A DNA stretch of 64,000 bases from Tribonema minus. Lineage: Eukaryota > Sar > Xanthophyceae > Tribonematales > Tribonemataceae. Below the pieces are notes generated by a model. The model made no database searches. It saw nothing but the letters and a program-made list of their open reading frames with translations, and was not told the DNA's origin. Below are positions 1,283 through 63,968 of this stretch, piece after piece. A program made the translations under genes and the position numbers. The stretch's first letter is position 1; each line of letters begins with the position of its first letter. The stretch is taken from contig JAFCMP010000002.1 of the NCBI GenBank assembly GCA_017506865.1, forward strand, positions 930,001 through 994,000, written 5' to 3'.

Positions 1283-4200
1283 CTGGCCCGTGCGGCGTCT
1301 ATCTGCTGCTGCCGTATCCTCCTTTCCTCTGCGTGCCGCTCCTGGATCTTTGCGCGCGCGGCCGCCTGAAGGTGGCAGTTACAGGTGGCAGTTACAGGGG
1401 GGATGCAGACGTGAGTCGCGAGCCAGTGTGAGGCAGTATCGATAGGTTCAAGTTTAGCAGGGGTCAGAGCTGCGCACTGCAACAGAAGGGCCTGCCAGGA
1501 TTGTTCTGAAGGCGGTACTCCAGGGCTGGAATTGTTAGGGTTTGGGTTAGGCTTAGGGTTAGGGTTAGGGTTACCCTAACCCTAACCCGGGGCACATGGA
1601 CCACGCAGTGAGTGTTGATGTTATTTGCTTGTTGATGCTTATTGATATCTCGGCACTTAGGGTTAGGGTTAGGGTTAGGGTTAGGGTTAAAGTTAGGTAT
1701 CTCGGCACTATCGGCGGCGGCGCTGGGTCTCGGCTTCACCCTCAGGGGCAACGTTAGAGTTAGAGCCAGGGTCAGGGATAGAATAACAGATGCAGATGGG
1801 GCTAGTGGCCTGCGGGTCGCGCTCGGCTGCGTCGTGGTAGCGTTCGCATCAGGGTAGGCATCAGCATTTTAAAAATCAGGGCTATCACTAGGGTTAGATG
1901 CAAGGGTCAGAGGTGAGGTTAGGGTTGGCACCTGCTTGGCGTCCCACTGGCGGCGGCGTTCCGCCTGCGCATCGAGCTCGTCTTTGGTGTGTAGGATTCA
2001 CACCCGGTTACGTATTGAGATTAGAGTTAGGGTTAGGGCTATGGTTAGATACAAGACTCAGAGTTTGAGGTAAGTGGGGCTAGGGCCAGGGGCTAGGGTT
2101 ACGTCAGGGTTAGGGTTAGGGTTAGCACCTGCTCTGCGTCCCACTGACGCCGGCGCTCTGCCTGCGCATCGAGCTCGGCTTGGCGCTCGAGGGCCGCCTG
2201 CTGCTCGCGGCTCATGTGGTCCCGCACCTGCCGGGACAGGCGCACCGATGTCAATCACATTGTTAGGTTTGAGCTTCAGGTTGTGGTTAGAGCTTTGCGT
2301 CAGGGGAGAGTAGGGTTAGGGTTAAGTCATGCGGTCCTACACGTGCCACAAGAGGCGCATTGCCAGGTTGAGCTTCAGGTTGGGGTTTGACTAAGTAGGG
2401 TTAGCCTGCTGCTCGCGGCTCATGTGGTCCCGGACCTGTCAGGACATTCGCACGGACATCAATTACAGTATGGCTCGTGAGTCATGCAGATGTGATGGGT
2501 CGCCATTCATGAATGCACCGACATCAACCAACTACGGAGTGGTTCGTGAATTACGCAGAAGTGTAATGATGGGTGGCTATTCATCAAGGCCCATGTCATC
2601 GTGCACACCTGCCAGATTGACCTTCAGGTTAGAGCTAGGGTATAAAGGGTCAGGTGGTGCTGCTCGTGCCAGACGGACGTAGGCGCGCCTGCTCCAATGA
2701 AATAGCAAGGGGGTAGGTAGGTACGGCTGGGGGAGCATAGGTATACCTTTCTGCTGCGCTGGTGCTCCAGCGCTGAAACAGCAAGGGGATAGGTACCCAA
2801 GACCAGGAGGTACGTAGGTAATACCTGTCCTCTGAGCTGGTGGCGCATACTACTACAGCAAGGGGGCAAGTAGGTGAGGCCAGGGGGTATGTGGGTGTAG
2901 TTGTGGACTTGTAATTACAAATACTCCGTCCTATGTATTGCATTTCCAGGGTTTACGCCCATGCAGCAGCTGAGCCTGCAAGGAGGTGCACCTGTCCGCT
3001 GAGCTGGCAACGCAGGCATACTGCTCCAGCGCTAAATTAGCAAGGGGTACGTGCGCAAGGCCGGGGGGTACGTAGGTATACCTGTCCGCTGAGCTGGTGA
3101 CGCAGGCGCGCCTGCTCCAGCGCCGCGCGCATCTTTTTGCGCGCCTGCGTGTCCTCAAACTCAATCTGCGCATAATCAGAGGAACGGTGCAGAATGTTCC
3201 AGCAGCGCAGGTTTAGATGCACCAGCAGGAAGGCACCAATTGATCAAAGAGGCTTTGCCCAATGGCGAGGATGCAATGCAGGTGGATTTGAAAGACAGGC
3301 TACTTGAATGAGTGGTGATTGGCGCAGCGAACGCTCTCCCTCCCTTGCGAAAGTCTATGTGCGCTCTGCCTTTTGCTTTTGCATGCTAGGGGGGGGGGGG
3401 ATGAGAGTATCTGCTATCCCCCTTTGAGTCACAAGTGCGAGAGCACCAGGTGTGAACTCTCGATGAACAGTCATCCTGACCGCATGGGCTTGCAGGCTGC
3501 CACGAGGTGCTTCAGAACTACGCATGAAGCTCCCTGCTGTGCCACATCAAGGGTTAGTGGTTTAGGGTTGGGGTTATGGTTTGATGTAGGGCTAGGGTTA
3601 GGGTGAGCGAAAGTCGCATGCCATGCATACATACATACGCACTGTGCCCCAACCGTCCGTATACGCGTACCAGTGTCACACTTCAGACTTATAGCCTTGT
3701 CAAGACCGCGTGTATGCTATAGCACAACCATATATACTTCAACGTGTACTTCAACATGAAAGTGTCTTGAACGACCTTTTACTGCGTGATTCGAGCTGCC
3801 AGGTCATGTCAAAAGCAGCCCGTCAGCCGCGCCTGCCAAAGTACCTCATTTTCTACTTCAACAAATACTTGAAATACAGGTTGATGCGTCGCCTGCTTGG
3901 CCATGTCAAAGGCACGCCAGTCGCGTGCGAGATCGTCCGCGCTGCCAGAGGCACTGCCACGGTACTCGAGGACTTGTGTCCATACAGGTCTCAAGGAAGG
4001 CCCAATGTCCTATGCAATTGTAACATTTACTCCCCCACGCAGCAGCCTCGTCTGCACTGCGCCCTCAGACTGCCACAGAACTTCGACGTATAAACTTAAC
4101 ATTCAGAGGTCAACTGGTGCGTCACCTGCTTGGCCATGTCGAAGGCACGCCAGTCGCGTGCGAGATCGTCCGCGCTTGCGCCCGCGCTGCCGCCCCTGGC

Positions 4201-6206
4201 GTCGCCGGCGCTGCCGCCCATATGCTGCGATTTCAATTGTGAAGTTTGAGCCAGCGTATTTCATGTCAGCAGCAATCATTTGAGGGGGCTTGGCTGTAGC
4301 ATAGTTGTCAAGTTTAAGGCAGCGCACTTCATGTCAGTGGTAATCATATGACTGCGGGCTTGGTTAAGGGTTGAGATTGAGGTTCGGAACTGGCGCCTCT
4401 AAGAAGAGTTTTGTGCAGGGTGTGCGCGTGCCACGGATGAAGTACGAGCAGAGAGGAGGCGACGCTCCTCTATGGGGATGGGTAATGTATGGCGTGAGCG
4501 CTCTGCAGCACTGTCAGTTCTCACTTGTGCTCTCATCTCAACCTGCGCAACTCTGATTGATGCGTGCAGAGTGGCGAGGCAATGCATCAGGGTCGTCAAC
4601 TGCAGTCTAAGTGGGCACCAAAGAAAACTTGTGTGCGCCAGGGGCTCCATGCATCCAGAGCTTTTGAGTGTTCTTACAACGGCCACTCACGCTGTCATCT
4701 CAACCTGCGCGAGTTGAACTGCTGCGTGCAGAGTGGAGTGACGATGCAACGATCGCAGGCACCTGCGCTGATGTACGCCCGCTAACTGGTCAATCCCCTG
4801 ACAAATCAGGACAACTGTCGTCCCTGCAGATTTTGTATCATCCTTAAATCCCACTCTCCCCCTGGCTGCGGCAGCAACTGCGCAAGCTGGCGTGCCAGCT
4901 ATGCTCTGGAGGCCTACACGACAGAGCCTTGGTCAAGAAGTACGACTTGCGCTCCCGCCACATTTTGCGCAAGCTCTCTTCAACATCCTGAGTCCTTGTG
5001 CTTCAACATCTTGAGTACTCGTGCTCACTGACACGGTCTTACACTCTTGGATGTACTGTTTTCTGCATGGTCTTGTGCTTGAAGACACAGTCACAGACTG
5101 GTAATGTATTCTCACCATCTGATCGCTCCCGCTTGACCCCCCCTGGAGGCCCCCGCTGCCAACTCCCCCCCGTTGCGCCCCCCCTCGCCCTCCCCCTGCG
5201 GCAGTGCTCACCCCATACATACCCTTCACATGCGCCTCCAGCTCAGCTAGGTCGGCGGCGGAGGGTTGAAGTTGGCGCTTGAAGAGATCCGCCACCGCCG
5301 CCTCCACTGCGTGCTCATGCCTGTAGTAAAAGAGGATTGCATATGCTCAAAATTGAATGGTAAGGCAGGCATTATTGCATGTCGTGAACTCGCCTGCATC
5401 AGTTGTATACCGTCCGTCCGTTGCGGCAAAATGCGCGGAGCAAGGCAGCTCCTGGTGCGTCACATGATCCTTGTAGTTGCAAGTTGATGTCGACAGTCCA
5501 TTTGTGCTCTGTTCAGTGCATACTCATCCTCAATAAAGCGTCATACTGAGCACTGAACAGCAAGAAGAGCATTCTGCAGTTTCTCGCATTTCAACGCAAC
5601 AGTTGTATCTGTAGGACGGGGTGGGAAGAAAGGTGGTGATGCTCGATCGACACCTTTGCTTTTTCCACTAGTCAGCGACGTGCTGCTGCGTAATCTGCCG
5701 CATTTCAGTTTTGATCTTTGCAGCAGTTGAGTGTCTTGATGTTCCAAACAGGCCATGAAGCTTACATAAAAGAAGTTCAGCACCACCACGAAAACACCAT
5801 TGCACACCCCAAACAATTGCGGCAGCGTCAGTCCCAGGCTGAGTGAAGGAGCATGATTGCTCACCTGGTTCCGTACTGCGCCACGAGTGTCTTGACTAAA
5901 GTGGCGGATTGCCGAGCGGCCTTCTCTTTGATCATCTCCCTTTTCTGTAGTGCCTCCAGCTTCTTGCGCTGCGCCGGCTGCTTGAAAGAGAAAAAAACAC
6001 GCACATGACATGTGAAGCAAGCACGAGGCGGCCAGCAAATGAGCCAGCGTGCGCAAAATAATACCTGAGGAAGGGCACAAAACACGACTGGTATGGTTGA
6101 CATAGGCTTCAGACGTCACGATGCATGCAGTTGAAAGAATGACTTGGCCCATCGCCTCAGCGGCAGAATCCGTACGTACCGAAGTCTGCGGGCGCATGCT
6201 CGCCAT
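1283..6206 (-). CDS. Cilium-type coiled-coil protein, seven exons, 3' end not in window
   Basis: Exons read from high to low coordinates: 6206-6180, 5980-5865, 5320-5212, 4224-4126, 3165-3082, 2227-2129 and 1365-1283. Every junction is GT-AG and every phase agrees (0, 2, 0, 0, 0, 0, then phase 2 open), giving 205 residues so far. The ATG at 6206 has A at -3 and G at +4, with an in-frame TAA upstream. Exon 2 is Lys-rich (KKLEALQKREMIK). Exon 3 is a helical stretch ending in LEAHVKGMYG. Exon 4 has a Gly/Ala/Ser linker, then DLARDWRAFDMAKQ. Exons 5-7 form a charged heptad-like coil with HQLSGQ, AELDAQAERRRQWD and ERRIRQQQI. The pattern of a W-containing segment followed by QVR and a RxxQI coil resembles flagellar TPH-type proteins. 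That family assignment is inference; the splice model is seen in the sequence. Several exon ends recur as extra copies in the introns. Confidence 0.8.
1553..1690. repeat. Interstitial telomeric repeats, partly head-to-head
   Basis: At 1553-1588 a TTAGGG run turns directly into CCCTAA repeats, making an inverted junction. About 70 bases later (1657-1690) there is a second TTAGGG run of more than five units. Shorter runs follow near 2028, 2107 and 2310. All lie in introns of the coiled-coil gene, so they are interstitial and not a chromosome end. Confidence 0.85.
1932..1990 (-). repeat. Donor-side copy of coiled-coil exon 6
   Basis: On the minus strand this copies the last third of exon 6 (DELDAQAERRRQWD, then AAGCAG) followed by GTGCC, as in the true donor at 2129-2128. 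It lies about 200 bases downstream of the real exon end. The reading frame is preserved and the last residues differ only slightly (AKQ against AEQ). Confidence 0.8.
2330..2440 (-). repeat. Acceptor-side copies of coiled-coil exon 6
   Basis: At 2435-2406 the minus strand reads CAG, then GTCCGGGACCACATGAG and GAGCAGCAGGC, a near-perfect copy of the start of exon 6 (VRDHMSREQQA) with its own AG, breaking off into TTAGGG-like sequence. A more decayed copy (CACGTGTAGGACCGCATGA) lies at about 2330-2370. Both are upstream of the real acceptor at 2228. Confidence 0.75.
2655..3060 (-). repeat. Four donor-side copies of coiled-coil exon 5
   Basis: Downstream of the real exon end at 3082, four further copies of the exon tail and donor occur, ending at 2992, 2825, 2747 and near 2660. 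They keep GCGCTGGAGCA at the start, CAGCTCAGCGGACAG-like sequence before the GT, and about 50 bases of intron (GTATACCTACGTACC and CCCTTGCTA). The copy at 2992 has a one-base deletion relative to the exon, so it is frameshifted. Confidence 0.8.
3886..3990 (-). repeat. Donor-side copy of coiled-coil exon 4
   Basis: The minus strand repeats the last half of exon 4 (SADDLARDWRAFDMAKQ) followed by GCGACG instead of the real GTGACG. The copied donor is therefore broken (GC). It lies about 230 bases downstream of the real exon end at 4126. Confidence 0.8.
4238..4760. repeat. Two intron tandem duplications
   Basis: A unit of about 65 bases at 4238-4295 (AAGTTTGAGCCAGCG, then TTTCATGTCAGCAGC) recurs at 4305-4362. 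A longer unit around 4530-4600 (TCTCATCTCAACCTGCGC, then GCGTGCAGAGTGG) recurs around 4695-4745. Both lie in the intron between exons 3 and 4 of the coiled-coil gene. No coding sense is evident. Confidence 0.6.
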
Positions 6207-6259
6207 GATCACTGAGTCGGCTGCTTCTGCGGAAGCTGACGATGAGTCAGGATGCAGTT

Positions 6260-7330: not shown

Positions 7331-7337
7331 CGCTTAG

Positions 7338-9249: not shown

Positions 9250-9255
9250 ATACTA

Positions 9256-10231
9256 TTAGGCTGGGTGCCCTACCGGTACCCCGACCGACGTAAAGCCCTG
9301 AATGGATTCTGGCATGGTGGCGTCCACAAACGGTATGTCAAGGGCGCGCAGGCGTGCTCTGGCCGCTTCATCAAACACTGTGCCGCGCATGGCGATGGCC
9401 AGCGACTCGGACTTGTCTGGTCGAACGCGTAGGCCCCCTGCCGCAAGCCGGCGGATCACCTCTGCCACCCCAGCGGCCGCTGCATCATCGAACTAGGCAG
9501 CTTGCAGCACGTTGAGGTCATCCAGGAAAGCGCAGTGCGGGGCTGGCGGTTCCGCTGTGCTGTGGCCGTAGGCCGGCATACTGCCGGGCGTCGCATTCAC
9601 TCCATCAGGGTAGAAGAGTATACTATAGGAAGGCCGCTGCCACTGCAAAGTACAGCGGCCCTAGAGGGTCCCCTTGCTGGCACCCTAGGTGGGAGCAGAT
9701 AATGCGAGCTTCACCGTTCACCTCCACTCGCATCTCTGGGGCAGTGTCACCACAGTATACGGAGTCCGACTCAAAGTGCGGGAGCAGCTCCGGACAGAAG
9801 AGCATAAGCCCCCGCACAATGGCGGCGCGATCCACACTGTTAAATGCGTTCGCACAGTCCAGCTGGATTGTGGTGCCATACAGCTCGTGCCACACGCGCG
9901 CGCGCGCTGCCACATGCTCGACGCCAGACCGGTATCCTACTACTAGGCCAAACTGCGACATGGAGGCCAGCAGCCGCCGGGCCGATGTTTTGCCCTTGAC
10001 ACTCCGTGCCGCTGTGGACCCGAGGAGTCTGCGCCAGACACTGTAGCAGGCGATCGGACGCCGCTTCTGTCCTATGCCTGAGAGGGCCGCGGCGCGGAGA
10101 AGCCGTAGGAGGGAATTATTTGAAACAATCCGCCAATTCTTGGAGGGCACCACGGGTTTGAGGCCGGCGGACACGCCCTGAGAAATTGTCCAGAGGCCGA
10201 AAAAGGGTTGATACCTTTTACACTTTTTCAA
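9256..10231 (-). pseudogene. Reverse transcriptase domain, broken
   Basis: Motif A is TIQLDCANAFNSVDR and motif B is GCQQGDPLGPLYFA. The frame then shifts near 9610. The catalytic box reads AFLDDLNVL at about 9528-9505, so the usual Y/F-x-D-D aspartates are present. A TAG stop follows at 9495-9493, and after it the frame continues to GVPVG near 9256. The two aspartates survive, but the stop and frameshift make a functional polymerase very unlikely. Confidence 0.85.
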
Positions 10232-13799: not shown

Positions 13800-14350
13800 T
13801 GCACTAGAGCCCACGAAGCAAGCAAGGGCGCTAGAACCCATTGTGCATTAGCGGGCAGGTCACCATGGTGTGTGCTCGAGCCCATTGCGCCTACTGTGGC
13901 AGGCAGGTGAGCACGGTGTGCGCTTGAGCCCGTTGCGCAAGTGGGCTCTGCGGCAGGCAGGTTAGCACGGTGTGCGCTTGAGCCCGTTGCGCAAGTGGGC
14001 TCTGCGGCAGGCAGGTTAGCACGGTGTGCGCTTGAGCCCGTTGTGCAATTAGGCTCTGTGGCAGGCAGGCAGGTCGCCGTAGCATGCGCTTGAGCCCATT
14101 GCGCGTACTGTGGCAGGCAGCGTACCACGATGTGCGCTTGAGCCCATTGTGCAAGTAGGCTCTGTGGCAGACAGGCATGTTGCCATGGCATGCTAGAGCC
14201 CATTGTGCAAGTAGGCTCTACTGCGGCAGGCAGGTTACCACGGTAAGCGCTAGAGCCCATTGTGCAAGTAGGCTCTACTGCGGCAGGCAGGTTACCACGG
14301 TGTGCGCTAGAGCCCATTGTGCAAGTAGGCTTTGTGGCAGACAGTCCAGT
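13800..14350 (+). repeat. Satellite array 1, 48-58 bp unit with dyad symmetry
   Basis: About ten units are anchored by GAGCCC (13878, 13926, 13980, 14034, 14092, 14140 and on) with spacings of 48, 54 and 58. The fullest unit reads GAGCCC, then GTTGCGCAAGT, then GGGCTC, followed by TGCGGCAGGCAGGT and a CACGGTGTGCGC spacer. The GAGCCC/GGGCTC arms and inner TTGCGCAA make a nearly complete palindrome. The same unit recurs at 18.1-18.6 kb in the same orientation. Confidence 0.85.
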
Positions 14351-14399
14351 ATCCTCAAGGCAGCTAGGACACACGTAGTGACGGAGCACGTACAGCATC

Positions 14400-15576: not shown

Positions 15577-17298
15577 CTACCGACGCGACCGTACAACGCG
15601 CAGGCCAGCAGACGCGCCCTTCAACTCATGGGTATAATCACGTGGTAGATGGAGCTCTGTAAGTGTGCTCGGCAAGTGCGGAAGCTGATGCGTGTATGCG
15701 GGGTTGTTGATGACAAGTTTCGTCAGGCTCGGCGACAGTGCGCCGAAAGGATGATTGAAGCTGTGACCAGTGCTTAACGTCTGCAGCAAAGGCGGGAAGT
15801 CTTCGAACGAGCAGTTATAGTCATAAGACTCGAGACTCAGCTCCAATAGTCCATGCGGCAGCGTGCCAAGGGGACGGGCAAAGCGACCCTGGTGATGGAC
15901 CGACAACCGCTGCAGCGTTTGCGGCAACTGTCCAAGTTCTTGGTCAAATCCTCTTCCCAGCCTTAGCACCTTGGCGCATATGCGTGATTGCGAAGAGGAA
16001 AGGAGAGAGAGAGAGAAAGACGCAAGGGCCTGTAAGGAACGGATATAGAAAGATGCTGGCGAGTGTGCACATCAGGCACACGTTTGTTGGCGTGTGTAGC
16101 AATGCCCAACCGCCAGGAAGAGAATACGACAGCAGTCATCACGCCACTGCAGCGCATGCATATAGACTTGCTATCAGGCTGCCACCATCAAAGGGCCTGC
16201 ATCACACGAGTGCGCAGCTGATCTGCAAAACAACAACGCAACTCTGACGACAGAGCTTCATACCTGCAGCCCCGGGGGGAGGTCACGCATCGGCTCGTTA
16301 AATCGGGTGGTGTTGCTCATATCCAGCCTCACAAGCTGTGCCGGCACGTTTCCGCCTTCAAACATCGTAGTGTAATTGCCGACAATAGTCAGATCTGTAA
16401 CCGTTGGCGGCAGAGACAGGAGTGAATTGCTGTCGATGCCCAGATCGCCGTCGTCGTTCTCGTTGTTGATGACGATAGTTAGTGGTGATAGTACGTTGGC
16501 GCTGTTTGAGCCGTCGCCGGCGCCGTATTGAATCAGCCGGAAGCCGTCGACCCAGGTTGTATAGTCAAGCTGGAATGTGCGCAGGCTTGTAGGCAGCACC
16601 AGCTCCTGACCCTCCAGGCGCATGCTGTAGACAATCAGCTTGCACAGGCCGCGCGGGAGCTGCAGGGCCGGATAAGGCTGGAGCTTCCACTCACGAGTCT
16701 TGCGATAGCTGACGTGGCCGCCGCCGGAGGCTTGGACGTGCAGCTCGGTCAGGCCTGGCGGCAGCTGTGCCAGCGCCGCCGCGGCGCAGTCTTCATCCTC
16801 CATGTTGTCGACGAGCAGAAGCTTCAGCCGCGGCGGCAACGGCAGCGCCTGCGGCACCAGGCCCGGGCCGTCGAGCATCAGGGCGCTGATGCGGGTGGCC
16901 CAGTGCGGGCTGTCCTTGACGGCGCTGAGCACTTGCAGGGCGTCGGCGACGACGCCGCGTTTGGCCTGAAGGACAAACTGCTCCACGTTCTTGGTCAGCA
17001 GAATGCCGGCCATGCAGGTCTGCGAAGGAAGTCCTCCGTGGGACACGGTCAGCTTGATTGCCGGCTTGACGTCGGTGTGCATCTGCTTGTTGAGAGCCCA
17101 CGCGTTCTTGGGGAGATAACGCCCATTGGCCATGATAGTCCAGACGCGTAGAAAGGAGGTGGCTGCAGGTGCAGGAGTGACATCAGATGTTGTTGCCGCG
17201 ATTGCTGATGCAGGCGCTAAGTCTGCGAGCACTGCTGCCGCGTGTGCTGCCGCAAGCCTTGGCCGAAAATAGGTGTGCTTGCTGCTGCTGGTGCCCAT
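15577..17298 (-). CDS. FNIP-repeat (LRR-like) protein, two exons
   Basis: Exon 1 is 17298-16264 (345 codons) and exon 2 is 15969-15577 (130 codons plus stop), giving 475 residues. The 294-base intron starts GTATGA, ends CCAAG behind a CTCTCTCT-rich tract, and is phase 0. The join falls inside a repeat (LPPGLQ, then VLRLGRGFDQELGQLP), which supports the model. Successive FNIP-type units (F-[ND]-x-P/E-L-x-x-LP-x-x-L-x-x-L) cover the last 170 residues, for example FNEPMRDLPPGL and FNHPFGALSPSL. The N-terminus MGTSSSKH fits an N-myristoylation signal (Gly2, Ser6). FNIP proteins are known from amoebae, algae and giant viruses, usually as protein-interaction scaffolds; the role here is unknown. Unlike its neighbours, the intron has no copies of the exon ends. 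Confidence 0.87.
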
Positions 17299-18109: not shown

Positions 18110-18584
18110 GCATGCAGGCTTTGCGGCAGGTAGGCAGGTCACCACAGTGTGCGCTCTCTGAGCCCATTGTGCGAACAGGCTCTGTGGCAGGCAGGCAGGT
18201 TACCACAGTGTGCGCTTGAGCTCGTTGTGCCTACTGTGGCAGGCAGCGTACCACGGTGTGCGCTTGAGCCCGTTGTGCTAGTAGGCTCTGCGGCAGGCAG
18301 GCAGGTCGCCATAGCATGCGCATGAGCCCATTGAGCAAGTGGGCTCTGCAGCGGACAGGCAGCGTACCACGGCGTACGCTAGAGCCCATTGTGCCTACTG
18401 TGGCAGGCGGAGTAGCACGGTGTGCGCTGGAGTCCATTGTGCCTATTGTGGCAGGCAGGTCGCCGGACCATGCGCTTGAGCCCATTGCATGTACTGTAGC
18501 AGGCAGCTTACCACGATGTGAGCTTGAGCCCGGTGTGCAAGTAGGCTCTGTGGTGGGCAGGCAGGTCGCCGTAGCATGTGCTTG
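18110..18584 (+). repeat. Satellite array 2 (same family as 13.8-14.35 kb)
   Basis: About eight units carry TTGAGCCC, ATTGTGCAAGTA, GGCTCTGTGGCAGGCAGG and GTYRCCRYRGYRTGCGC. The array stops abruptly within one unit (GTAGCATGTGCTTGG), and coding sequence of the SprB-repeat fragment begins at about 18585. The two arrays flank the FNIP gene in the same orientation. Confidence 0.85.
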
Positions 18585-46090: not shown

Positions 46091-49000
46091 ATGTACCGTT
46101 GCAAGGCGATACGTACAGGAGGGAAGCAGCTGCATGCATTGCTACAGAATGCGCGAACCAGCAGCTGGAGCCAGTATCTGTCAGGCGCTGCCAAGGGACT
46201 GACTTCAGCCCGCCTTGGCGGAGACAAAACGCCGCTGCTACATGTTGATTGGCGCGATGGCCATAAGAGTATCTTCCTGCTGGTCTGGCTGAAGGATCAC
46301 GCCCCCGAGGGCTATCATGCAACCACTCAGCAGAGAGAGACGGACACCTTCAGCATTCCTAGGGGAGCTGCCCTGAGCGCCAGTTCCGCGAGAGTTGAAG
46401 GTACGCTGCTGTGTGAAAAGCTGCCAATTGTTTTCAGTTCAGGCAGGCTGCGTGTTTGCTCGCACCGGAGCTGCAGAGTCTACACAACGAATTCACACAG
46501 GTCTGCATGTTAGCGACCACGTCCAATGGAAAGCTTCACTTCCGAGGTCTGCTACAGATGAACACCCGCAAGCAGCTGTAACCCTGCCGAAGTCACAGCA
46601 GGATGCGCTACCGCTATCTTGCTTTGTGACCACGCCTATTATCTGTTGATGCGCAGAGTCGCGATCCATGTGGTAAGCCTGCTGAAACATGACGTTTGCT
46701 GAGCGAGCTTGCGCTCCGGACCAGCAACTTTCTGAAGTGTATGCTGCTTGAGTCTGACTGACGAGTTGACGAGCAACGCCATTGTCTATGACCGCCTTCT
46801 TGTCTACCAATGCCGGGCAGGGACACAGGTGTTTGTATCAAAGCAAGTGTGTCACCACTTTCCCTTGCAGCCTGATGGGCTGTGCGCTGCGCTGAGGACA
46901 GCGTGGCAAACTGGATGCACGTCGCTCAGCGAACTATTGCGTTGTTGCTGACGGTTTTTAAAGCGTCATTATTTTTACTTGCAGCGTAGCTATAGCTTTT
47001 GAAGCTTTCTCAAAAAACAGGGAAAGGTCTAATTAACATGTGTGGGTTAACTGCATGTGTCGGCAGCAGCAACATTCCAAGTGCCCCTCAACATTGAATT
47101 AACAGAGAAGGTGGCTCTCTCACCTCATCAGCGATGAGCTGAGCACTGCACTCAGCAGGCATCACAAACCCTAATCCTAAGTGGCAAACCGCATGCATGC
47201 CGCTCAGCGCTTCATAGCTTTTCGCCTGCGTTTGTTACCTGCAGCACCTCTACATGCCATTGCTATCTAAACGAGAGAGAAGCCGGCCCGCTCTGCCGCT
47301 TGTGCAGTGCCGCTGTACTGAGCGGAGCACTGCTGTAAGCACTGCTGTGAGCACAGCGCCGCTGAGCAGTGCTGCGCACGCCGCCCAACAGATATCTGCC
47401 TGCAAGTGCCACATTCATCGCCTGTCAGCCTTGGTGTCACACACAGATGTGCATGCAACAGTACATGTCGGTATCAGACCATCACTGCGTGCGCGATGCT
47501 GCTGAAGTTCAACGGCGCGTGGACTTCAACAGCCACCTAATTAAACCCCCCTAGACCCTGACCCTAACACTAACCCAAAGTTTGCTCGCAAGGGCGGCTG
47601 CTGCCACGCGCACTTTTTGCTGGTGGTATGTACACGTGACACTGTGACCGGCCTCCTGTAATAGGAGCACAACCGCTGAGTGCGCAGGCTGGCTGCCGCA
47701 TCATTACTCCGTCACGCCGCGTTGGACAGGCAGCGAGCTTCTCATAGAATGGAGCGGCGCTGCAGCAAAAATGCAGGCACTGCTCAGCACATTCTTGCTG
47801 TTGTGGCTCGTATACATATGCTACAGACCTCATGCATGACCACTAGGTCTGCAGGCTGACTGCCACGTCAGCATCGCTTGTGCACATCCATCGCGCTGCG
47901 CCGAACAGGCGGCGAGCTGCTCAAAGAGCGGAGCGGCGCTGCGGCGAAAGTGGGGGCGCTGCGCAGCGCGTTGTTGCTGTCGTGGCTCATTTACATATGC
48001 GACAGGCCTCACAAATCAGCAGCACGACTGCTGAGTCTGCAGGCCGGCTGCCTTCGCTCGTTTGCACTGGTTTCAATATACTGCATCTTCAACTGAACTT
48101 TAACACAACTGCCACCACGTAACCGCCGTAACCGCCGTAACCGCTGAGCGTCTCTGCCACGCCAAATCGAACAGGGGGCGAGCTGCTCATAGAGTGGAGC
48201 GGCGCTGTGGCAAAAATGGGGGCACCGCTCAGTGCATTTCCGCTGTCGTGGCTAAGGGAGCACTGCACGTCGCCGGCGGCGCGGAGGCTGCGCACGGAGC
48301 ACGTTGCAAATGGCTGCGGGGTACCCCGGGTATGTTTGTATGTAGTAAGGCGTGTACTGCAGTGGAGTTCATGTGTATGGCTGCGAGGTACTCTCAGAAG
48401 TGAGTGTTGCACAGACACTGCGAACAGCTGCGGGATACCCCGGGTATGTATGTATGTGACGTGTACTGCAGTGGAGTTTATGTGTACTGCTGCATGGTGG
48501 ATCCTCGGAAGCGGTGCGTGGAGGACGCCGTCAATGGCTGCGGGGGTACCCCGGGTATGCATGTAGGTGAAATAATCTTTCATTAATACTCGCGTAGGCG
48601 CAAAGCAACCCAGATGGTAGATGTCCAGCTTGCTACCAGAATCTGCATGTGTCTTGTGAATATTCGAAAGTGTTCGCAATGCGCATTGGCGATCACGTGG
48701 CATGTACTGCAGTGGAGTCCATGCAACCCTGACTTCAACCGCCATCACCTCGAAACAGGTCCTCTGGGGCGCGGAGCTCATGCGCATCGAGGGGAACGTT
48801 CTGAGAACGGCGCCGGGCGCCCCAACGCTCAGCTATGCGGAAGCCATGTCGCCGGACGGCAACGGCATGGCGGCGGCGATGCGCATGCTGCGCGCCTACG
48901 GCATCGTGCTGGTGACGGGATCGCCGACCACGATGGAGGGCACGGTACGTCACACTTGAAGTGTGTCACACTTGAAGTGCACACTTTGAAGTTTGCATGC

Positions 49001-52000
49001 TGCGCGCATCCGGCATCGTGCTGGTGACGGGCTCGTCAACCACCATGGAGGGCACGGTGCATGTGCGTCACACTTTGAAGTTCACGCTTTGAAGTATACG
49101 TCATACATACTCCCCCCCGCTTATGGATGCTTTTGCGCGCACGAACGTGGTCGTCGCCTGCCACGCTAGAGCGTGCAGTTGGCCTCAGCAGACTGTGAAT
49201 GAATGTGAAATACAAGGGGAGGTGGGGGGGGGGGGGGGGGCATGTATGCATGGAGAGTGTGGTTGAAGTGGGGTGATGGGTTCGTCAATCGTGATGGAAG
49301 GCACGGTGCGCGCGGGTGCGGCTTTTGCCCTGCCTACGAGTATGCGTCATTTGCCTCGATAGTGAATTGGGCGTGGGGGAAGGGGGGGGGGGGCAGGCAT
49401 GTATGGTATGCATCGGCAGTGTAGTTTGAAGAGGTGACGGGTTTGCTGGCTTTGTGGTTAGGGCTAGGGTTAGCTAACCCTAATCCTAATAGTAAGATGG
49501 AGCGTCAAGGGCGACGCTAATTGACTGCGAAGGGGGGGCATATATGCATAGAGGATGCACTTCAAGTGAGGCGGACGGCAAAAGGCAAGTTGCAGTTGTA
49601 GTTCCATGACTGACACACTGCTACAAGTTGGTTCACTTGAAGTCTTCTTCAGGTCCTCCATGGAGATTGTGGTTTAAGTGGCGGGCGTTAAGTCCACGAC
49701 GCACTGCATTAGATTGGTTCAGACACAACATGATAGGAGGCGCTCGCAATGCGAACGGGCTGCTGCTGTAGGACCATTTTGCTCGTTTTGTTGTGTGTCA
49801 CTGGCAATTGGCGCACTTTGTGACTGAACCCTCGCCGGCGCCGCGCACGTGCACCAACTTCAACACTGCAGGAGGCGCTGGCGACGCGCATCGGCTTGGT
49901 GCGTGAGACGCTGTTCTTGCAGCTAGAATATTGATGTTTGTGAGCTGTGAACTGCTACTTCAGGTTCAGGCAGCGTGACCGCCACCGACCGACCTCAAAC
50001 GCACTGCAGGACGTCCTCGCGCATCGGCGGGTTGCACGAGATGCTGCGCCTCACTGCTCAGCAACCATACTTGAAGTATCACATGACCACGCAAACTTCA
50101 ACTTACAGGAGGCGCTGGCGACGCGCACCGGCTGCTGCCGCAAAAACGTCGGTTTCGTCGTCTGTCACCAGCAATTATTGCACTTTGTGACTGATCCCTC
50201 GCTGGCGCTGTGCGCGCACCAACTTCAACATTACAGGAAGCGCTGGCGACGCGCATCGGCGTGGTGCGCAAGACGCGCTGTACGGAGACGCAACTCAAAT
50301 GTTGGAGTTTTTGTGAGCTGATCGACTTCAAGTTCAGGCAGCGTAACTGCAACCGACCTCAAACGCACTGCAGGAGGCGCTTGCGACGCGCATCGGCGTG
50401 GTGCGCGGAGACGTTCTGCCTCACTGCTCAGCAAGCCATACTTTAAGTACTTCTACCGCAATTCATCTTCTCACGCTTTGCGTGGCGCCCCAACACACTG
50501 CAGGAGGCGCTGGCGACGCGCATCGGCGTGGTGCGCGAGACGCTGTACGGCGGCATGTGGGCCACAAGCGCGGAGGGCGCAGAGGAGGCACACAACGACA
50601 CCGCATACACGAACCTCGCACTCGGCGCGCACACCGACTGCACCTACATGATTGATCCGCCGGGGCTGCAGGTGCGAGGACTTCAACTTGAAGTAAAGTA
50701 TTCAATCCAACATAGTGGTTGTGACTGGTGCACAACGACACCGCATACACGAGCCTCGCGCTTGGCGCGCACACGGATTGCACCTACATGATCGATCCGC
50801 CGGGGCTGCAGGTCCGTGATACTGCAACTTAATGTAAAAGTATTCCATCTAAAGTATACTTCTATTCGATTCACGACTCTTGCACGATGACACTGCGTAC
50901 ACGAATCTCGCGCTCGGCGCGCACTCCGACTGCACCTACATGACCGATCCGCCGGGGCTGCAGGTGCGCGGTTTTGAGTCATGATGTTTGCACAACGACT
51001 CTGCCCGTTTCATCGGTCTATATCCCTGAGGCAGCCCATCGGTCAGCGTTGTGCTCAAGCGCCTTCGTCGTGCCTCCACTCTGCACCCTATCGAACGCAC
51101 TTAACCCCCCCTGCTGACTTCAATACGCTGCTGAGCACTGTGACAACGCGCGCTCGCTCATCGCCAGGTGTTGAACGGCGTGGCCGCAGCGCCCAAAGGC
51201 GGCACCACCACCCCTACGTCGATGTGTTGTACAACATACAGGAAGCCCGGAAAGGCCCTCAAGCGCCTTTATCGTGCCTCCACTCTGCACCCTATCACAC
51301 GAGCCCAACCCCCCTGCTTCCACTGAGCACCCTATTACACGCGCCCAACCCCGCTGCTGACCCCCGTACGCTGCTGAGCACTGTGACAACGCGCGCTCGC
51401 CTGCTGCCAGGTCTTCAACTGCGTCGCCGCAGCGCCGAAAGGCGGCACCAGCACCTACGTCGACGGCTTCGCAGTGGCAGCAGCGCTCAGAGAACAGGAT
51501 CCCGAGGCATTTGAATTCTTTGCACGCACGCCGTTCAAGTACTTCTGCCATGACAAATATCACCATTTGCTGGCTGCGGGGCCGGTTTTCACGCTCGGGT
51601 GCGGGGGGCAAGTTGTGCAGGTATGTGTGATAAGTACTCGTGTGTAACATACCCACACTCTGATCATTGCTGATGTATCTGCCGCGCAGCGTATGTTTAG
51701 ACAGGCTTACTGTGGCTGGGGCTCAAGTGATGTGGTAGCTGCGCCACTTCATAGACTGCTGTACATATGTAGAGCACATCCACTGGTTTTTTGCGTGGCT
51801 TTGTGCAACAAAAGCCGCCATGCGAAGGCAAATGTACAAAATTCAAGTACATCAATGAGTACTAGCCATTCATGATGTATACCGTACATATATAAAACTT
51901 ATTTACAGGGTGTGTCGCGTGGTAGGTGCGACAAGGACCGCCATGCGAAGGGTGCACATGTTCATACATTACCTAGTGACTGCTAGCCACACATGATGTA

Positions 52001-53338
52001 TATTTCAGAGTGCTTTCCACGTAGTGGGCTTGGCCGCACTGCAAACAACCGCTGTTTACAAAACGCAGCATGCTGCGGGCTCACGCGCTGCTCGCTGCTG
52101 TGCGTGCGAAAGTTACCCAGCACAACTTTTGTGGAGGGGGTCTTGGTGAGGCCGTGTGCAACCCCCCCTTGCCCCCCCCCCCCCCCCTCCCCCTCCCCCC
52201 CCCAAGAAGAATTGAGACAAATATCATGCAGTGGGACCATGCGTTGCTCGCCTCCGCAGGTGCATCACAGCGACTACGGCCGCGCGCCGCTCGACCAACT
52301 CAATCACGCAGTGCATCACAGGTCGATGAAGCCTCTTCGGGGCGTTGCTGCTCACTGCGCTCGAAGACCCCTCCCCCCCCCCCCGCCCCCCGCCCCTACC
52401 CAAATACGCGAGAAAGAAATGCCAAACGCGGTGTGCGCACGTTGCTCGCTGCCGCAGGTCCGTCAAGTGAAAAAAGCCACTGAAAACGAATCACACCAGC
52501 AAATCAAAAACCAGTGCATCACAGCTCCATGAAGCCGCCCCGGTCGCCGCGAAGGATACCTACTGCTGCTCACGAAAGCATTGTGCTGTGTGCGTGCGCG
52601 CAATACTCGCAGGTGCGTCACAACGACTATGATCGTGCGCCGCTCGACCACCTCCCCTACGGCGACATCGAGGCCTTCTACAAGCACCACGGCAAGCTCA
52701 CGGAGCTGATACGCGCTGAGTCTTCAATATTGAAGTTGAGGCTGCGGCCCGGGGACACGGTTATCGCCGACAACCACCGGACGATGCATGGGTAAGTGGG
52801 TTAGGGTTAGGGTTAGGGCTAGGGTCAGGGTGAGCACTAGGGTTGTCGGTTTGAGCGTCTTGCGTTATATGCGCACAGAGAATGTGCAGCAGCCTGCAAT
52901 ACTGCCATGGTTCGCAGTTGCAGACAAATGGCCGTTGATGCTGCAGATGAGCACATCTTGACCTCATGCACTTATTTGTTGATGACATACTTGCAGCGCA
53001 AGGTAGAAATGTCAGCAGATTTTATTTATCAAAATTGCATTTTGAAAACGCAAAATGTACATAATCAAATGCGTGCCCTGCCCTCAAACTCTACATTTTG
53101 CATACTACAGTACCTCCCATACCTTTGTGCAAGAAGGAAACCACGCTTGACACTGCAACGCGCCCCTCACACACCACCCTCCCTATTGCACATTTTTTTC
53201 GTCCTGTCTCCCGCTGAGCGCTGCAGCCGCGAGGCTTTCGTCGGCCGGCGGCGCATGGTGGGCTGCTACATATCGCGCGACGATCACGAGTCGCGCGCGC
53301 GCGTGTGCGGCCTCGCAGTGCCGCCCGAAGTCCTCTAG
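46091..53338 (+). CDS. TMLHE: Trimethyllysine dioxygenase, mitochondrial, seven exons, 439 aa
   Basis: Exons: 46091-46400, 48175-48329, 48759-48944, 50504-50671, 51411-51620, 52613-52791 and 53227-53338. All introns are GT-AG; phases 1, 0, 0, 0, 0, 2 agree and total 1320 nt. This Fe(II)/2-oxoglutarate enzyme hydroxylates trimethyllysine, the first step of carnitine synthesis. About the first 45 residues lack Asp and Glu and are rich in Arg, Lys and Ser, fitting a mitochondrial presequence. The N-terminal domain has VWLKDHAPEGYHATTQQRET and SWLREHC. Catalytic domain: AYTNLALGAHTDCTYM gives iron ligands H260 and D262, the distal ligand is H402 in NHRTMHGREAF, and R428 in ESRARVCGL is the likely 2-oxoglutarate Arg. 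NDYDRAPLDHLPY and GCYISRDD favour this enzyme over gamma-butyrobetaine dioxygenase, which remains the alternative. The Cys residues usual in the N-terminal WLRDHC...C motif are absent (WLKDHAPEGYH). Confidence 0.92.
47730..48000 (+). repeat. Two acceptor-side copies of dioxygenase exon 2
   Basis: Copies begin at 47730 and 47909, each after GGACAG or GAACAG, and run about 85 bases. The first reads SELLIEWSGAAAKM, then LLSTFLLLWL; the second GGELLKERSGAAAKV, then LRSALLLSWL. The real exon at 48175 reads GGELLIEWSGAVAKM, then PLSAFPLSWL. Both copies stay open and keep the phase. Confidence 0.85.
48395..48730 (+). repeat. Donor-side copies of dioxygenase exon 2
   Basis: The tail GGCTGCGGGGTACCCCGG with donor GTATGT (real end 48329) recurs ending at 48443 and at 48554, again followed by GTATG. 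Each unit also contains the intron block GTACTGCAGTGGAGTTYATG (about 48356, 48467 and 48704). The unit is about 110 bases. Confidence 0.82.
48995..49690 (+). repeat. Donor-side copies of dioxygenase exon 3, decaying
   Basis: 48995-49056 copies the last 20 codons of exon 3 (MLRASGIVLVTGSSTTMEGT) with donor GTGCAT. A weaker copy ends at about 49302 (GATGGAAGGCACG, GTGCGC). Fragments with the same intron context (TGTATGCATGGAGAGTG, TTGAAGTG) recur near 49405, 49540 and 49655. Confidence 0.75.
49872..50420 (+). repeat. Five acceptor-side copies of dioxygenase exon 4
   Basis: Copies start near 49872, 50009, 50108, 50237 and 50371; the real exon starts at 50504. Most read CAG then GAGGCGCTGGCGACGCGCAT (EALATRI) and run 25-45 bases into the exon before diverging. 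Each is preceded by an AACTTCAAC- or CTCAAACGCACTG-type intron end. Confidence 0.87.
50729..50963 (+). repeat. Two donor-side copies of dioxygenase exon 4
   Basis: Each copy holds the last 27 codons, from HNDTAYT to MIDPPGLQ including the iron-binding HTD (HSD in the second copy), followed by GTCCGT (after 50812) or GTGCGC (after 50963). The first copy differs from the exon by five synonymous and one amino-acid change, the second by four synonymous and three replaced codons. Neither has an obvious acceptor at its left edge. Confidence 0.88.
51040..51250 (+). repeat. Acceptor-side copy of dioxygenase exon 5
   Basis: From about 51170 the sequence reads VLNGVAAAPKGGTTT after CGCCAG, copying the exon start at 51411 (VFNCVAAAPKGGTST), then shifts frame. 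About 130 bases of preceding intron (CTGCTGAGCACTGTGACAAC, GCGCGCTCGC) are copied as well, giving a unit of about 240 bases. Confidence 0.85.
52020..52520 (+). repeat. Acceptor-side copies of dioxygenase exon 6
   Basis: At 52260 CCGCAG is followed by VHHSDYGRAPLDQL, a copy of the exon start at 52613 (VRHNDYDRAPLDHL). A shorter copy follows GCCGCAG at about 52458. A block at 52020-52200 (CGCTGTTTAC, GCTGCTCGCTGCTG, CACAACTTTTGTGG) recurs at 53550-53740. Poly-C tracts follow several units. Confidence 0.78.
52799..52845 (+). repeat. Telomeric-type repeat beside a splice donor
   Basis: GGGTTAGGGTTAGGGTTAGGG starts seven bases after the donor of dioxygenase exon 6 (GTAAGTG), then degenerates to GCTAGGGTCAGGGTGAG. 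Confidence 0.85.
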
Positions 53339-56300: not shown

Positions 56301-56321
56301 CATTGCCATGGCAGTGGTCGA

Positions 56322-59924: not shown

Positions 59925-60050
59925 ACCAGTGTTGGCACAAGTGTCGTACAGGTATCAGTGTCGTACAGGTACTAGTGCAGGTATCAGTGTCGTACAGGTA
60001 CTAGTGTCGTACAGGTACAGAGATGCATACAGGTACGGAGATGCGTTGTA
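59925..60050 (+). repeat. Tandem CAGTGTCGTACAGGTA repeat
   Basis: About seven short units of 12-20 bases, each carrying GTACAGGTA or CACAGGTA. Every unit therefore contains an overlapping acceptor-like CAG and donor-like GTA. Confidence 0.8.
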
Positions 60051-60208
60051 TCGACAAAACCTGGGCGCACACGTGGCCCCTGTCAGCAGAGGTGCAGTGC
60101 TCGCACCGCAATCACATCGCAGTCGTGAAAAGGAGCTTCGCAATCGCATGCAGGCACATCACACGTTGAACCGTGCGCCGTGCGCCGCTGCGCGCGGGGC
60201 TGCGGCGG

Positions 60209-61480
60209 ATGCCGTTCTGCGGCCCGCAGCTGCGGCGCGCAGTGCATCTCCAAAAACGCGCTGCCACTCCCATACTAGGGTTAGGGTTAGGGTTAGGGTT
60301 AGGGTTAGGGTTAGCGTTAGGGTTAGGATTAGGGTTAGGGTTAGGGTTAGCGCAGTCCCACCTCATCACCCTTATGACCACAGATGACATGGATTCGCAG
60401 ATGTGAAAGAAGAGGCCCCTGTGCCTGCAGGCGCAGGCTGCAGCGCATGCCACTCTGCGGCCCGTGCGCTATACATAAACCTACCCGGAGAAAAAAGATC
60501 ACAGCTCCAAGTGCCTTACCTCAACCTTCTGGTGATGCGTCTGTATCGAGCATCTCTGCGGTACACACCTTGTGTGTCGCGGTGACCATGAGATCTACTT
60601 GGCATCTCGTCGTCGTTGTGCAGCAAGTCTGCGACAGCGCATGGCAGGAAACAAGCGCCGCCCTTGCGCGGTGCCCTTGTCACAGCACATCATAACACTC
60701 AGCACTGCACGCACGGGCACGTCACGCGTTGAACTGCGCCATGCACCCCCTCCCCAGCTGCTGCATGCAGGCTGCAGCGCACGCCGTTCTGCACGCGCCG
60801 CTGCCGTGAACCATGAAGAAGAACCGCAGCTGACATGCGAGCATGTCTAGTTACTCACGTCTGGTATACTTCTGTAGTTGGCTTCGTTGTGAAATCGACA
60901 TCACATGGTTGGTTCGTTGTGAAATCGATTCACATCACAACGAAGCCAACTATACCAACCTCGACCCACGCAGCGCGCGCCCGCCGCGCAAAGGTTGCAG
61001 CTGCTGCCATTCTGCGGTCCGCATGCGCGCTGCACGCCTATTTATCTATAAATGACTCATGTGACCGTTCTGTCGGAGCACGCGCCGCTGCCGCCAATCG
61101 CAAAGAAAAACCCTCAAAGCACAATACACGCAGGGCACGTCACACATTGAAGTGCGTCACGCGCCCCCGCCTGCGCTCAGGCAGTAGCTCATGCCATTCT
61201 GCGGCCCTTACGTGCGCCACGCGTGCCTGCCCAGGCACACGCCGCTGCTGCGACCACCCTCACATATGATTCAGATATGAAACGGAAGCACGTCTGGAAT
61301 CACACTCATTTATACACTTGTAAGTCAAGCCGTGGCGCATGCCTCTGCCACACGCAGGCTTCAGCTGATGCCTTTCTGCCCGTATGTGCGCTCCACGGCG
61401 TGTTTGCCCAAGCAAGCGCCGCTGCCACCAGTCTTGAAGGAGAACCTCAACACTACACGCGGAAGAAAGCAGCACTACAC
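60209..61480 (+). repeat. Six acceptor-side copies of Frizzled-like exon 1
   Basis: Copies of the exon start (GGCTGCAGCTCATGCCGTTC, then TGCGGCCCGTACGTGCGC) lie near 60209, 60447, 60780, 61004, 61191 and 61368; the real one is near 61541. The later copies are longer and better kept: the one at 61368 runs through PYVRSTACLPKQAPLPP. Four are preceded by GGCACGTCACRCGTTGAA or a close variant. Confidence 0.85.
60275..60350 (+). repeat. Interstitial telomeric array
   Basis: About twelve TTAGGG units with two variant units (TTAGCG, TTAGGA), lying between two copies of the Frizzled-like exon start. Confidence 0.9.
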
Positions 61481-61537
61481 GCAGGGCACGTCACACGTTG
61501 AACCGCATCGCGTGCCCCCACTGCGCGCAGGCTGCAG

Positions 61538-63611
61538 CTCATGCCGTTCTGCGGCCCGTACGTGCGCTACACGGCGTGTCTGCCCAAGCAAGCGCCGCTG
61601 CCGCCGTCGCGCGACCACCCGCAGGGGCGCTGGTGGAACCACACCGTCGCGCACAAGGACGACTGGGTGCGCGAGTACTACGAGCGGGTGAGTGCGTGAG
61701 TTGAAGTTAAGATTCAAGTTGAAGTTAGGGTTAGGGTTGGGCGCTGGTGGAACCACACCGTCGTGCACAAGGACGACTGGGTGCGCGCGTACTACGAGCG
61801 GGTGAGTGCGGGAGTTGAAGTTAGGATTAGGGCAGGGGGTTAGGTTTAGGGGTAGGGTGGGTTAGGGATCAGACCGTTAGGATTGCAGGGCACTTTGAAC
61901 GTCCTCTTGAGCTGGGGCTAGGGTTAGGATCAAGACCCAGATTAGATTAAGAGGACACTTTGAACGTCCTCTCGAGCTGGCACCAGGGCAGGAGCAAGAG
62001 TCAGACCATTCGGGTTCGGGGCACTTTGAACGTCCTGTTGAGCTGCTGCTCATTGCGGGCAGTTTGCCGGTTGGGGGTTAGAGTCAGTGACAGCGATAAG
62101 CGCCACCGCTGTGCCAGAGAACGGTCAAGCAGAGACACAACGCGCGAGAGCATGCGTTGCTGACAAGTAGTGAATTAGGTGTTAGGCAACCCAGAGAGCT
62201 GTTGCTCACTGCCCTGTTGTCCACACTGGCAGAGGCAGACATCAAGCTGACTAACGCAACTGAAGACCAGCGCCAGTCGTGTGCTGGTAGAAGTGATTGT
62301 ATTGTGGTCTACAAGTGACAAGTACTTAGGGCTAACCCTAACCCTGGTAATGAGCATGTAACTGCCATATGCTCCAACAGGGACGTGCCGCGAATTGTTT
62401 GAGCACTGTGGCGCGTCAGCGCTCAGCACCTCGTCGCGCGCTTCCGGCACGTGCGTGAGTTGCCGCGCCATGCGAGCTATCACTTAGGGTTAGCGTTGAT
62501 GTTAGGGTAAGCATCGGCGCACCGCACGTGCGGATCCTCGCCAGGAGCGTCACTGTTCAAGAACAACACGGGGCGTTGCAGAATGCGGGGCGCGACAAAT
62601 CCGGGGTGCGAAGCATAGAAATGCGCACGGTGACGCTTCAGCAGTCTAACGCGTATCAGTGCTCCGCACGTGCGGATCCTCGCCAGGGGCGTCACTTGTT
62701 GAAGAGCAACACGGGGCGTTGCAGAATGCGGGGCGCGACAAATCCGGGGCGCGAAGTATCGAAATGCGCACGGTGATGCTCAGCAGTCTTATGCGCATCA
62801 GTGCTGCGCGCGCAGATTGTCGGCGATAGGGTCGCGATTGAAAAAGACAAGGCGCTGCAGAAGGCGGGCCGGGACGAGAATGAAATGAAGTATCGATCGT
62901 GCGCATGCTGATGCTCAGCAAATTAACCTGACGTGCAAGGGCGCCTTGCGCATGCGCAGATTGTTGGCGAGAGGGTCGCGATCGAGAAGGACAAGGCGCT
63001 GCAGAAGGCGCTGCAGAAGGCGGTTTGGCTCGATATTTTGAAAGCGCATGATGATGCTCAGCAGTTTAATGCACATCAGTACTTGGCACGTGCAGATCGT
63101 TGGCGAGAGGGTCGCCATTGAACAGGACAAGGCGCTGCAGAGGCCGGGCGCGACTAATCCCCTCAAATCATTGGCAAAATGCGCATGATGATGCTCAGCA
63201 GTCTAGCGTGACGTGCATAGGCGCCATTCGCGCGTGCAGATTGTTGGCGAGAGGGTCGCCATCGAGAAGGACAAGGAGGCGCTGCAGAAGGCGGGATGAG
63301 ACGAATTCGGCACAAAGTATCAAATTGCACATGCTGATGCTCAGCAGTCTAACGCAGTCTAACACGACATGCGTCGACGCCATTCGAACGCGCAGATTGT
63401 TGGCGAGAGGGTCGCCATCGAAAAGGACAAGTCGTTGCAAAAAGCGGGGCGGGATGAGTTCGGCGCGCGCGGCGCTCCCGTGCCGCGCTTCAGCAACAAC
63501 CCCGACTGCCGCGACGCGTTCCGTAATTATGCGTGCTGGACCAACTTCCCGCGCTGCATCGAGGAGACAGGGGAGACGCTCATGACGTGCCACAGCGCCT
63601 GCGAGAACATG
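61538..63611 (+). CDS. Frizzled-CRD-like protein, two exons, partial
   Basis: Exon A is 61538-61687 (or from 61531 with the upstream AG) and exon B is 63396-63611. Both junctions are phase 0, with donor GTGAGT at 61688 and acceptor CGCAG at 63395. A further donor (GTGAGC) at 63612 shows the gene continues to the right; no start is seen. Exon A carries PFCGPYVRYTACLPKQ and a Trp-rich stretch (GRWWNHTV; DDWVREYYER). Exon B carries NNPDCRDAFRNYACWTNFPRC and then TCHSACENM. The C-x7-C-x5-P-x-C...C-x3-C spacing is that of Frizzled cysteine-rich domains, so this is probably an extracellular, disulfide-bonded module. The family call is inference; the exon structure is well supported by phase. Confidence 0.7.
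61738..61803 (+). repeat. Donor-side copy of Frizzled-like exon A
   Basis: GRWWNHTVVHKDDWVRAYYER followed by GTGAGTGCGGGAGTTGAAGT copies the end of exon A (GRWWNHTVAHKDDWVREYYE, then R) and the first bases of intron. Two amino acids differ. Confidence 0.9.
62530..63395 (+). repeat. Acceptor-side copies of Frizzled-like exon B, about 140-bp unit
   Basis: Four clear copies start at 62816, 62960, 63096 and 63240; the real exon is at 63396 (spacings 144, 136, 144, 156). Each has a GCGCAG- or GTGCAG-type end, then IVGERVAIEKDKALQKA-like codons, then a GATGATGCTCAGCAGTCTAA block in the intron part. Two more decayed units start near 62540 and 62665. Confidence 0.88.
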
Positions 63612-63659
63612 GTGAGCGCTGCTGCTCTGATATGATGGTTTCATTAATGAATACACTAC

Positions 63660-63968
63660 TAACATACCACAATGCGCGCAAAAACATGGTGAGCGTTGCT
63701 TTCATGTACTTCAAGTTTAGTTGGCATGACGTGCCACAGCACGTGCGAGAATAGGTGAGCGCTGCTGCAGTGATGTGCTGTTCTCTTCACTTATTATTCA
63801 GTGGATTAGTGTACTTTATATATGACGTGCTATTTTATCTGCTTTTGTGTACTTCAAGTTTAATTTGCATGACGCGCTGCAGCGCGCCCGAGAACATGGC
63901 GAGCGTCGCTGCTTTCGTAAAGTTCAAGTCTACTGTATGTGACGTGCCACAGCGCGCGCGAGAACATG
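63660..63968 (+). repeat. Four donor-side copies of Frizzled-like exon B
   Basis: The exon end ACGTGCCACAGCGCCTGCGA, then GAACATG with GTGAGC (real end 63611), recurs ending at 63688, 63754, 63898 and 63968. Donors are GTGAGC, GTGAGC, GCGAGC (broken) and GTGAGT. TACTTCAAGTTTA occurs in the intron part of two units. Confidence 0.85.

Follow-up and report, generated by a model that had tools for sequence, protein, structure and literature searches.

Introns of Tribonema minus (Xanthophyceae) carry copies of the edges of their own exons. In each copy, here called an echo, the adjoining exon edge, its splice site and the adjoining intron are repeated inside the intron. With a probability of roughly 0.7, the echoes stem from tandem duplications across an exon-intron junction and have been decaying since, with a spacing of about 75-200 nt between copies; the outer copy would be the one that is spliced, and the arrays would change in copy number. 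The window, the whole stretch of 64,000 nucleotides that was analysed, is C2:930001-994000 (forward strand) of the 158.18-Mb genome.

Echoes at exon edges

As the exon reference we used public T. minus proteins or homology models, which were mapped with our own spliced aligner. Every gene model is either predicted or taken from public annotation, with exon use as annotated and splicing as predicted. Exact spliced mapping onto C2 placed P0122 with 14 exons on the minus strand (from window position 17298 to beyond position 1), P0133 with its FZ domain with 4 exons on the plus strand, P0134 with 5 exons, P0121 with 6, the flavin reductase P0123 with 11 and P0001, a hybrid-cluster protein encoded downstream of the window, also with 11. 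For the trimethyllysine-dioxygenase-like gene on the plus strand, a 7-exon model was built on the brown-algal protein P0136. GOGAT (C527) and two Hsp70 genes (C522) were modelled from E. coli proteins, so their edges are less exact, and one 30-nt GOGAT 'intron' is probably an alignment artefact. Similar Hsp70 genes on C522 form an inverted pair about 24 kb apart (C522:954201-958100 and 981401-985200; L052, L053).

The edge sample comprised ten genes, mostly from one contig, with 160 exon edges (80 donor, 80 acceptor). Up to 50 nt of each edge, at most half of the exon, was compared with the introns and with 199 dinucleotide shuffles of each, and an echo was called at p <= 0.005 and z >= 6. Edges whose half-exon fell below 20 nt were left out, as were introns shorter than 30 nt; this kept 80 of 82 introns per class. 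Right-polarity echoes, which means acceptor copies in the preceding and donor copies in the following intron, were found at 37 of the 160 edges (21/80 donor and 16/80 acceptor), whereas the wrong-polarity intron gave 1/160 (1/80 and 0/80; Fisher p 3e-11). The same test gave 1/49 matches for exon interiors, and 0/203 when an exon edge was compared with an intron three positions distant within its own gene (3/203 at p <= 0.005 alone). With this looser cut, the counts were 42/160 for the right polarity, 1/160 for the wrong one, 1/49 for the interiors and again 3/203 for the distant introns.

The echoes were distributed unevenly. Positive edges numbered 5/6 in the FZ gene, 7/12 in the dioxygenase, 8/20 in the hybrid-cluster protein gene, 11/26 in P0122 and 5/18 in P0123, but only 1/40 in GOGAT, 0/22 in Hsp70, 0/8 in P0134 and 0/8 in P0121. 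Grouped post hoc, the five echo-rich genes had 36/92 and the five echo-poor genes 1/68 positive edges. Since GOGAT and the two Hsp70 genes, with introns of a few hundred nt, are almost free of echoes, the process is uneven across genes. A copy count with a slightly different cut found 78 copies, which lie at 40 edges and belong to 7 of the 11 gene models, with up to seven copies in a single intron. Echoes were found on five contigs: C2, C527 (one edge), C36, C67 and C32.

Within the window, 34 copies were counted at 15 exon edges. An earlier note on this DNA had described tandemly repeated exon ends with their splice site and adjoining intron on both strands, more than 30 in number and with this same polarity, and all of this was borne out: P0122 lies on the minus strand, the FZ-domain and dioxygenase genes on the plus strand. 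Its figure of five genes has to be lowered to three, since edge-tied copies occur only in the coiled-coil gene P0122, the FZ or Frizzled-like gene P0133 and the dioxygenase gene. P0134, listed there as a 'Crinkler-like' echo gene, had no echo at any of its 8 edges, and the Crinkler label found no confirmation either, since Pfam matched none of three pieces of it at E 0.1. A direct 87-nt match with the two copies 2 kb apart (36754-36840 and 38766-38852) lies upstream of the annotated start of this gene. The region of the 'orphan' gene (42.2-44.7k) holds a tandem array at 44017-44220.

In P0122, exon 6 of the coiled-coil gene (2129-2227, exact mapping) has a donor-side echo at 1932-1980, seen in a self-match of 1906-1984 to 2103-2181 at 85%, and an acceptor-side echo in the preceding intron at 2404-2435 (self-match 86%). 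Exon 5 (3082-3165, exact mapping) is followed by three donor-side echoes in the copy count, at 2676-2696, 2825-2847 and 2992-3032. The donor-side echo of exon 4 (4126-4224, exact mapping) lies at 3893-3941, where 3882-3943 matches 4115-4176 at 95%. All of these are on the minus strand.

The dioxygenase echoes come from the copy count and the exons from the model on P0136, all on the plus strand. Exon 2 (48175-48329) has two acceptor-side echoes (47733-47779 and 47911-47957) and two donor-side echoes within 48409-48554, and exon 3 (48759-48944) has one donor-side echo at 49011-49056. Exon 4 (50504-50671) is preceded by five acceptor-side echoes within 49872-50413, starting at 49872, 50018, 50109, 50237 and 50374, and followed by two donor-side echoes within 50764-50963. 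Single acceptor-side echoes were seen for exon 5 (51411-51620, overlapped by a TauD Pfam match at 51405-51533) at 51168-51219 and for exon 6 (52613-52791) at 52260-52301.

In the FZ-domain gene on the plus strand, exon 2 (61531-61687, exact mapping of P0133) has six acceptor-side echoes within 60199-61403 by the copy count and a donor-side echo at 61752-61801 with a self-match of 96%. For exon 3 (63396-63611), the copy count gave four acceptor-side echoes within 62816-63275 and three donor-side echoes within 63725-63968; of these series, the annotation takes the last copy as acceptor and the first as donor.

Other features of the window were recorded as well. The P0122 model joins a long first exon (16264-17298) over a 10.3-kb intron to the coiled-coil gene (5865-5980), and two separate genes may have been fused in this public model. 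The same first exon had been taken for a separate 'FNIP gene' free of copies, a name that its open reading frame, with no Pfam match at E 0.01, does not support. Within the 10.3-kb intron there is a weak, sub-threshold reverse-transcriptase match at 9623-10231. One minisatellite unit occurs in the window in two blocks about 4 kb apart (13850-14368 and 18115-18584). A unit of 246 nt (82 codons) is repeated in tandem about six times at 18597-20100, with about 90% identity and in long open frames; related sequence is found at many genomic places with 63-76% identity. A retroelement-like open reading frame with an RVT_1 match lies at 24467-28603 (minus), flanked by large open reading frames, and a second segment at C2:1122769-1126905 (plus) equals it in length, score and opening residues. 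Against five first-order Markov samples, TTGAAGT/ACTTCAA is strongly over-represented in the window (48 occurrences vs 4 expected), in many introns and intergenic stretches, as is ACTTGAAGT/ACTTCAAGT (14 vs 0.4). Interstitial TTAGGG repeats are present at 1535-2124, 52798-52844, 60276-60350 and other places.

Structure and decay of the copies

Independently of the exon edges, the introns were searched for duplicate components, leaving out introns of less than 60 or more than 4500 nt (80 of 82 kept) and simple or telomere-like repeats. The 80 introns contained 45 direct components and 5 inverted matches, and a 284-kb stretch gave 315 direct vs 47 inverted matches. The donor is spanned by 19 of the 45 components and the acceptor by 11, each with at least 10 nt on either side, so that 30 are strictly junction-spanning; 6 more reach an exon but lack the 10 nt on at least one side, and the other 9 lie wholly within the intron. 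The spacing had a median of 140 nt with 10-90% limits of 75-202 nt, and the duplicate arms made up 24% of the intron sequence. Short duplicated segments can be assembly errors or chance similarities. Dinucleotide-shuffled introns (three shuffles each) had 0 direct components, the best-matching copies of a component are 2-32% divergent and echoes occur on five contigs, so either origin is extremely improbable. The most similar copies, at 98% identity, are in intron 10 of P0122 and intron 10 of P0123.

In 60 pairs of a real junction and its echo, one of them misaligned, the alignment runs across the junction and covers on average 47 nt of exon and 132 nt of intron. Since the alignments continue into the intron, the copies derive from unspliced sequence, either DNA or unspliced RNA. 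The exon part of the unit had a median of 43.5 nt over 30 edges, shorter than expected from uniform placement (KS p 0.005), and was at most 81 nt in 29/30 cases; in one case the whole exon of 28 nt was covered. Judged by eye, the exon lengths are often similar among the copies of one array. The public models use the outer copy, and in P0122, P0133, P0001 and P0123 the echoes sit inside one intron. Introns with echoes had a median length of 854 nt (n=31) vs 411 nt without (n=57). The arrays roughly account for this extra length, because the median length of the duplicated introns fell to 414 nt after a rough subtraction of the array spans.

Selection for spare or alternative splice sites, a cause which the earlier note had suggested, would preserve the echoes. 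In a position profile against the real exon, with one acceptor pair left out, the echoes appear conserved up to the splice site, and identity to the echoes is higher for the real exon (2930/3292) than for the adjoining intron (6399/7513). The comparator in this profile is the constrained real exon, and most of the apparent conservation was removed when echoes were compared with each other: the identity was 0.835 (1677/2008) for exon-derived and 0.812 (1759/2165) for intron-derived sequence, a difference with a nominal p of 0.056 over non-independent positions. The splice dinucleotides are intact in 52/59 echoes, which is above the intronic baseline of 0.59 but close to the more fitting exon-side baseline of 0.80 (p 0.09). 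Neither the profile nor the echo-echo identity nor the dinucleotides thus support selection on the echoes. The findings fit a decay much like that of neutral DNA, with which weak selection is still compatible. This neutral-like decay argues against spare splice sites under selection, as does the fact that the public gene models splice at the outer copy, and we regard such a role as very improbable.

Echoes were also seen in other parts of the genome. For purL, modelled from E. coli with 7 introns in a 6.8-kb stretch on C36, 3/7 donor and 0/7 acceptor edges had an echo at p <= 0.005, vs 0/14 edges in the wrong polarity. Among the 6 duplicate components of this stretch, 4 run across the end of a modelled exon; of the other two, one is intronic and one overlaps the point where the alignment begins, which is itself uncertain. 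From two gcvP paralogs, a pair chosen for differing intron lengths, one intron each was examined at the same boundary, which was placed by reading the sequence and the limits of the matches instead of a spliced model; the copy on C67 contains four donor echoes and that on C32 two. This common array suggests, as read from the sequence, that its seed predates the gene copy and that the copy number has changed since. Both the gcvP pair and the similar exon lengths within arrays fit the growth of an array from one seed per boundary, as previously proposed.

Origin of the echoes and their excess at exon boundaries

We propose that a segment straddling an exon-intron junction is likely to have been duplicated in tandem. 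The inner copy would then be removed with the intron and the outer copy spliced, which would leave the protein unchanged. As long as the mRNA is kept, a duplication at the acceptor would put the extra copy into the preceding intron and one at the donor into the following intron. A duplication wholly within the exon would alter the protein and would presumably be purged by selection. Because such a sieve would keep junction-straddling and remove exon-internal duplications, the polarity could arise without special machinery, judging from what is known of splicing. The long direct repeats would promote further gain and loss, and the arrays probably grew and shrank by unequal exchange or slippage. 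Boundary-spanning tandem duplication had already been named as the source of the polarity, and our counts are in accord with it. Three observations count against this explanation: 36/45 components touch an exon boundary vs an expected share of 0.23-0.56, the exon parts are short, and echoes are nearly absent from GOGAT and Hsp70.

Exon-like sequence at intron ends would also result if introns arose when exon segments containing AGGT were duplicated in tandem (Rogers model). That model places the head of the downstream exon at the intron start and the tail of the upstream exon at its end, with splicing between the AGGT copies. The copies found here hold the whole junction with flanking intron, up to seven per intron, which makes intron gain of this kind a most improbable source of the echoes. 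The nearest test to it, which covered edges in the wrong-polarity intron as a whole, was positive at 1/160 edges.

More weight has to be given to the reading that the junctions are true hot spots, where breaks or template switches are favoured, for example by R-loops or nucleosome edges, so that the excess would be mutational and go beyond tolerance. Under uniform placement, the expected boundary share is 0.23 at the present intron lengths and 0.39 for introns of 382 nt; the latter value becomes 0.56 with a twofold better detection of pairs that include exon. Per eligible position, with the eligible length set at 90 nt per edge, boundaries were hit about 12x as often as intron interiors (gene bootstrap 5.6-38) and about 10x as often as stretches free of coding-like sequence. 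The exon part of at most 81 nt in nearly all cases also speaks for hot spots. The GC content accounts for only about a factor of two, because coding-free DNA at 60-65% GC has 0.58 components per kb (6 in 10.3 kb); above 65% GC there were 0 in 1.9 kb, both values resting on few cases.

On the other side, the expected boundary share rises to 0.58-0.72 for introns of 250 nt and to 0.70-0.81 for introns of 200 nt, close to the share observed. When only the strict cases were used (30/39, vs 9 intronic), the p values were larger yet small at the first settings, and none was below 0.01 at 250 nt. Exon constraint lengthens the time of detection, only ten genes were sampled and 36/37 positive edges sit in five of them, and the median spacing is alike contig-wide (146 vs 140 nt). 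Four motifs had no significant association with the duplications: telomere-like repeats (P 0.09), TTGAAGT (0.92), ACTTGAAGT (0.30) and poly-C (0.19). The interstitial TTAGGG repeats of the window, in which GGGTTAGGG occurs 28 times vs about 0 expected, thus have no more than a weak, non-significant tie to them.

Stretches free of coding-like sequence contained 24 components in 96.8 kb (0.25 per kb), and the earlier statement that intergenic DNA is not hit was too strong. In an annotation-free analysis of the rest of the contig, 28/70 remaining components touch coding-like sequence vs 16.4 expected. The scan for coding potential caught 59% of the annotated exon bases, so the 'coding-free' stretches may hold missed exons and the contig result is only supportive. 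We conclude that a few-fold excess at boundaries remains unless the introns were much shorter when they were hit, which ten genes cannot settle. Introns of 200-250 nt at the time of duplication would largely remove the excess, so that targeting is no more than a possible reading. The frequent hits on boundaries that the earlier note had pointed out thus stand with the present intron lengths, whereas shorter ancestral introns could largely explain them. Hot spots in the mutational sense are a real but doubtful alternative to tolerance. It would likewise be a tentative step, and one we think rather unlikely to hold, to regard T. minus junctions as tandem-duplication hot spots whose introns lengthen mainly by budding their own ends, with intron length as a running record of junction duplications.

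Comparison with known systems

Intronic minisatellites are head-to-tail arrays of diverged units. The echo arrays resemble them in this respect, but their unit includes an exon part and a splice site. In tandem exon duplication and mutually exclusive exons, exon sequence is repeated in the gene, and the former would copy a whole exon with both splice sites. An echo has a single splice site and, over 30 edges, an exon part with a median of 43.5 nt; the one exon of 28 nt is the exception in being covered whole. Introner-type mobile introns would spread one sequence to unrelated introns; the comparison made, with introns three positions distant within one gene, gave the 0/203 (z >= 6) and 3/203 (p <= 0.005) reported above.

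One published case is akin to the echoes: a single boundary-crossing tandem duplication in a potato RdRp gene, which gave rise to a new intron and left an additional piece of exon in the mRNA (PMC4974935). The earlier view that no such system had been described has to be softened accordingly. As in potato, the tandem duplication takes in the intron tail and the exon head, and a duplicated exon edge with adjoining intron was found in 30/45 components. The potato case is one event with a new intron; in T. minus, the copies form arrays within an old intron at many donor and acceptor edges, and in the four public models named above the echoes remain within one intron. The tandem duplication of an AGGT segment is treated as a route of intron gain in the consulted passages of a review (PMC3443670). 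Like the echoes, it involves a local tandem duplication that is tolerated via splicing, but it duplicates exonic sequence into a new intron, whereas the T. minus echoes come without a demonstrated intron gain. In 12 of the 26 matching passages of a paper on Ectocarpus transposons, with a single mention of Tribonema, no such pattern appears (PMC12477816). At the level of titles and abstracts, with most subscription papers outside the coverage, we recognised no description of intronic arrays of exon edges.

The lengthening of introns is usually credited to transposons and small insertions. In T. minus, not quite a quarter of the sampled exon edges bear the mark of a local and readable process. 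Since exon and intron parts adjoin in each echo, the echoes provide datable duplications, a neutral beside a constrained clock and natural decoy splice sites, and they could make intron growth and splice-site choice testable in one genome.
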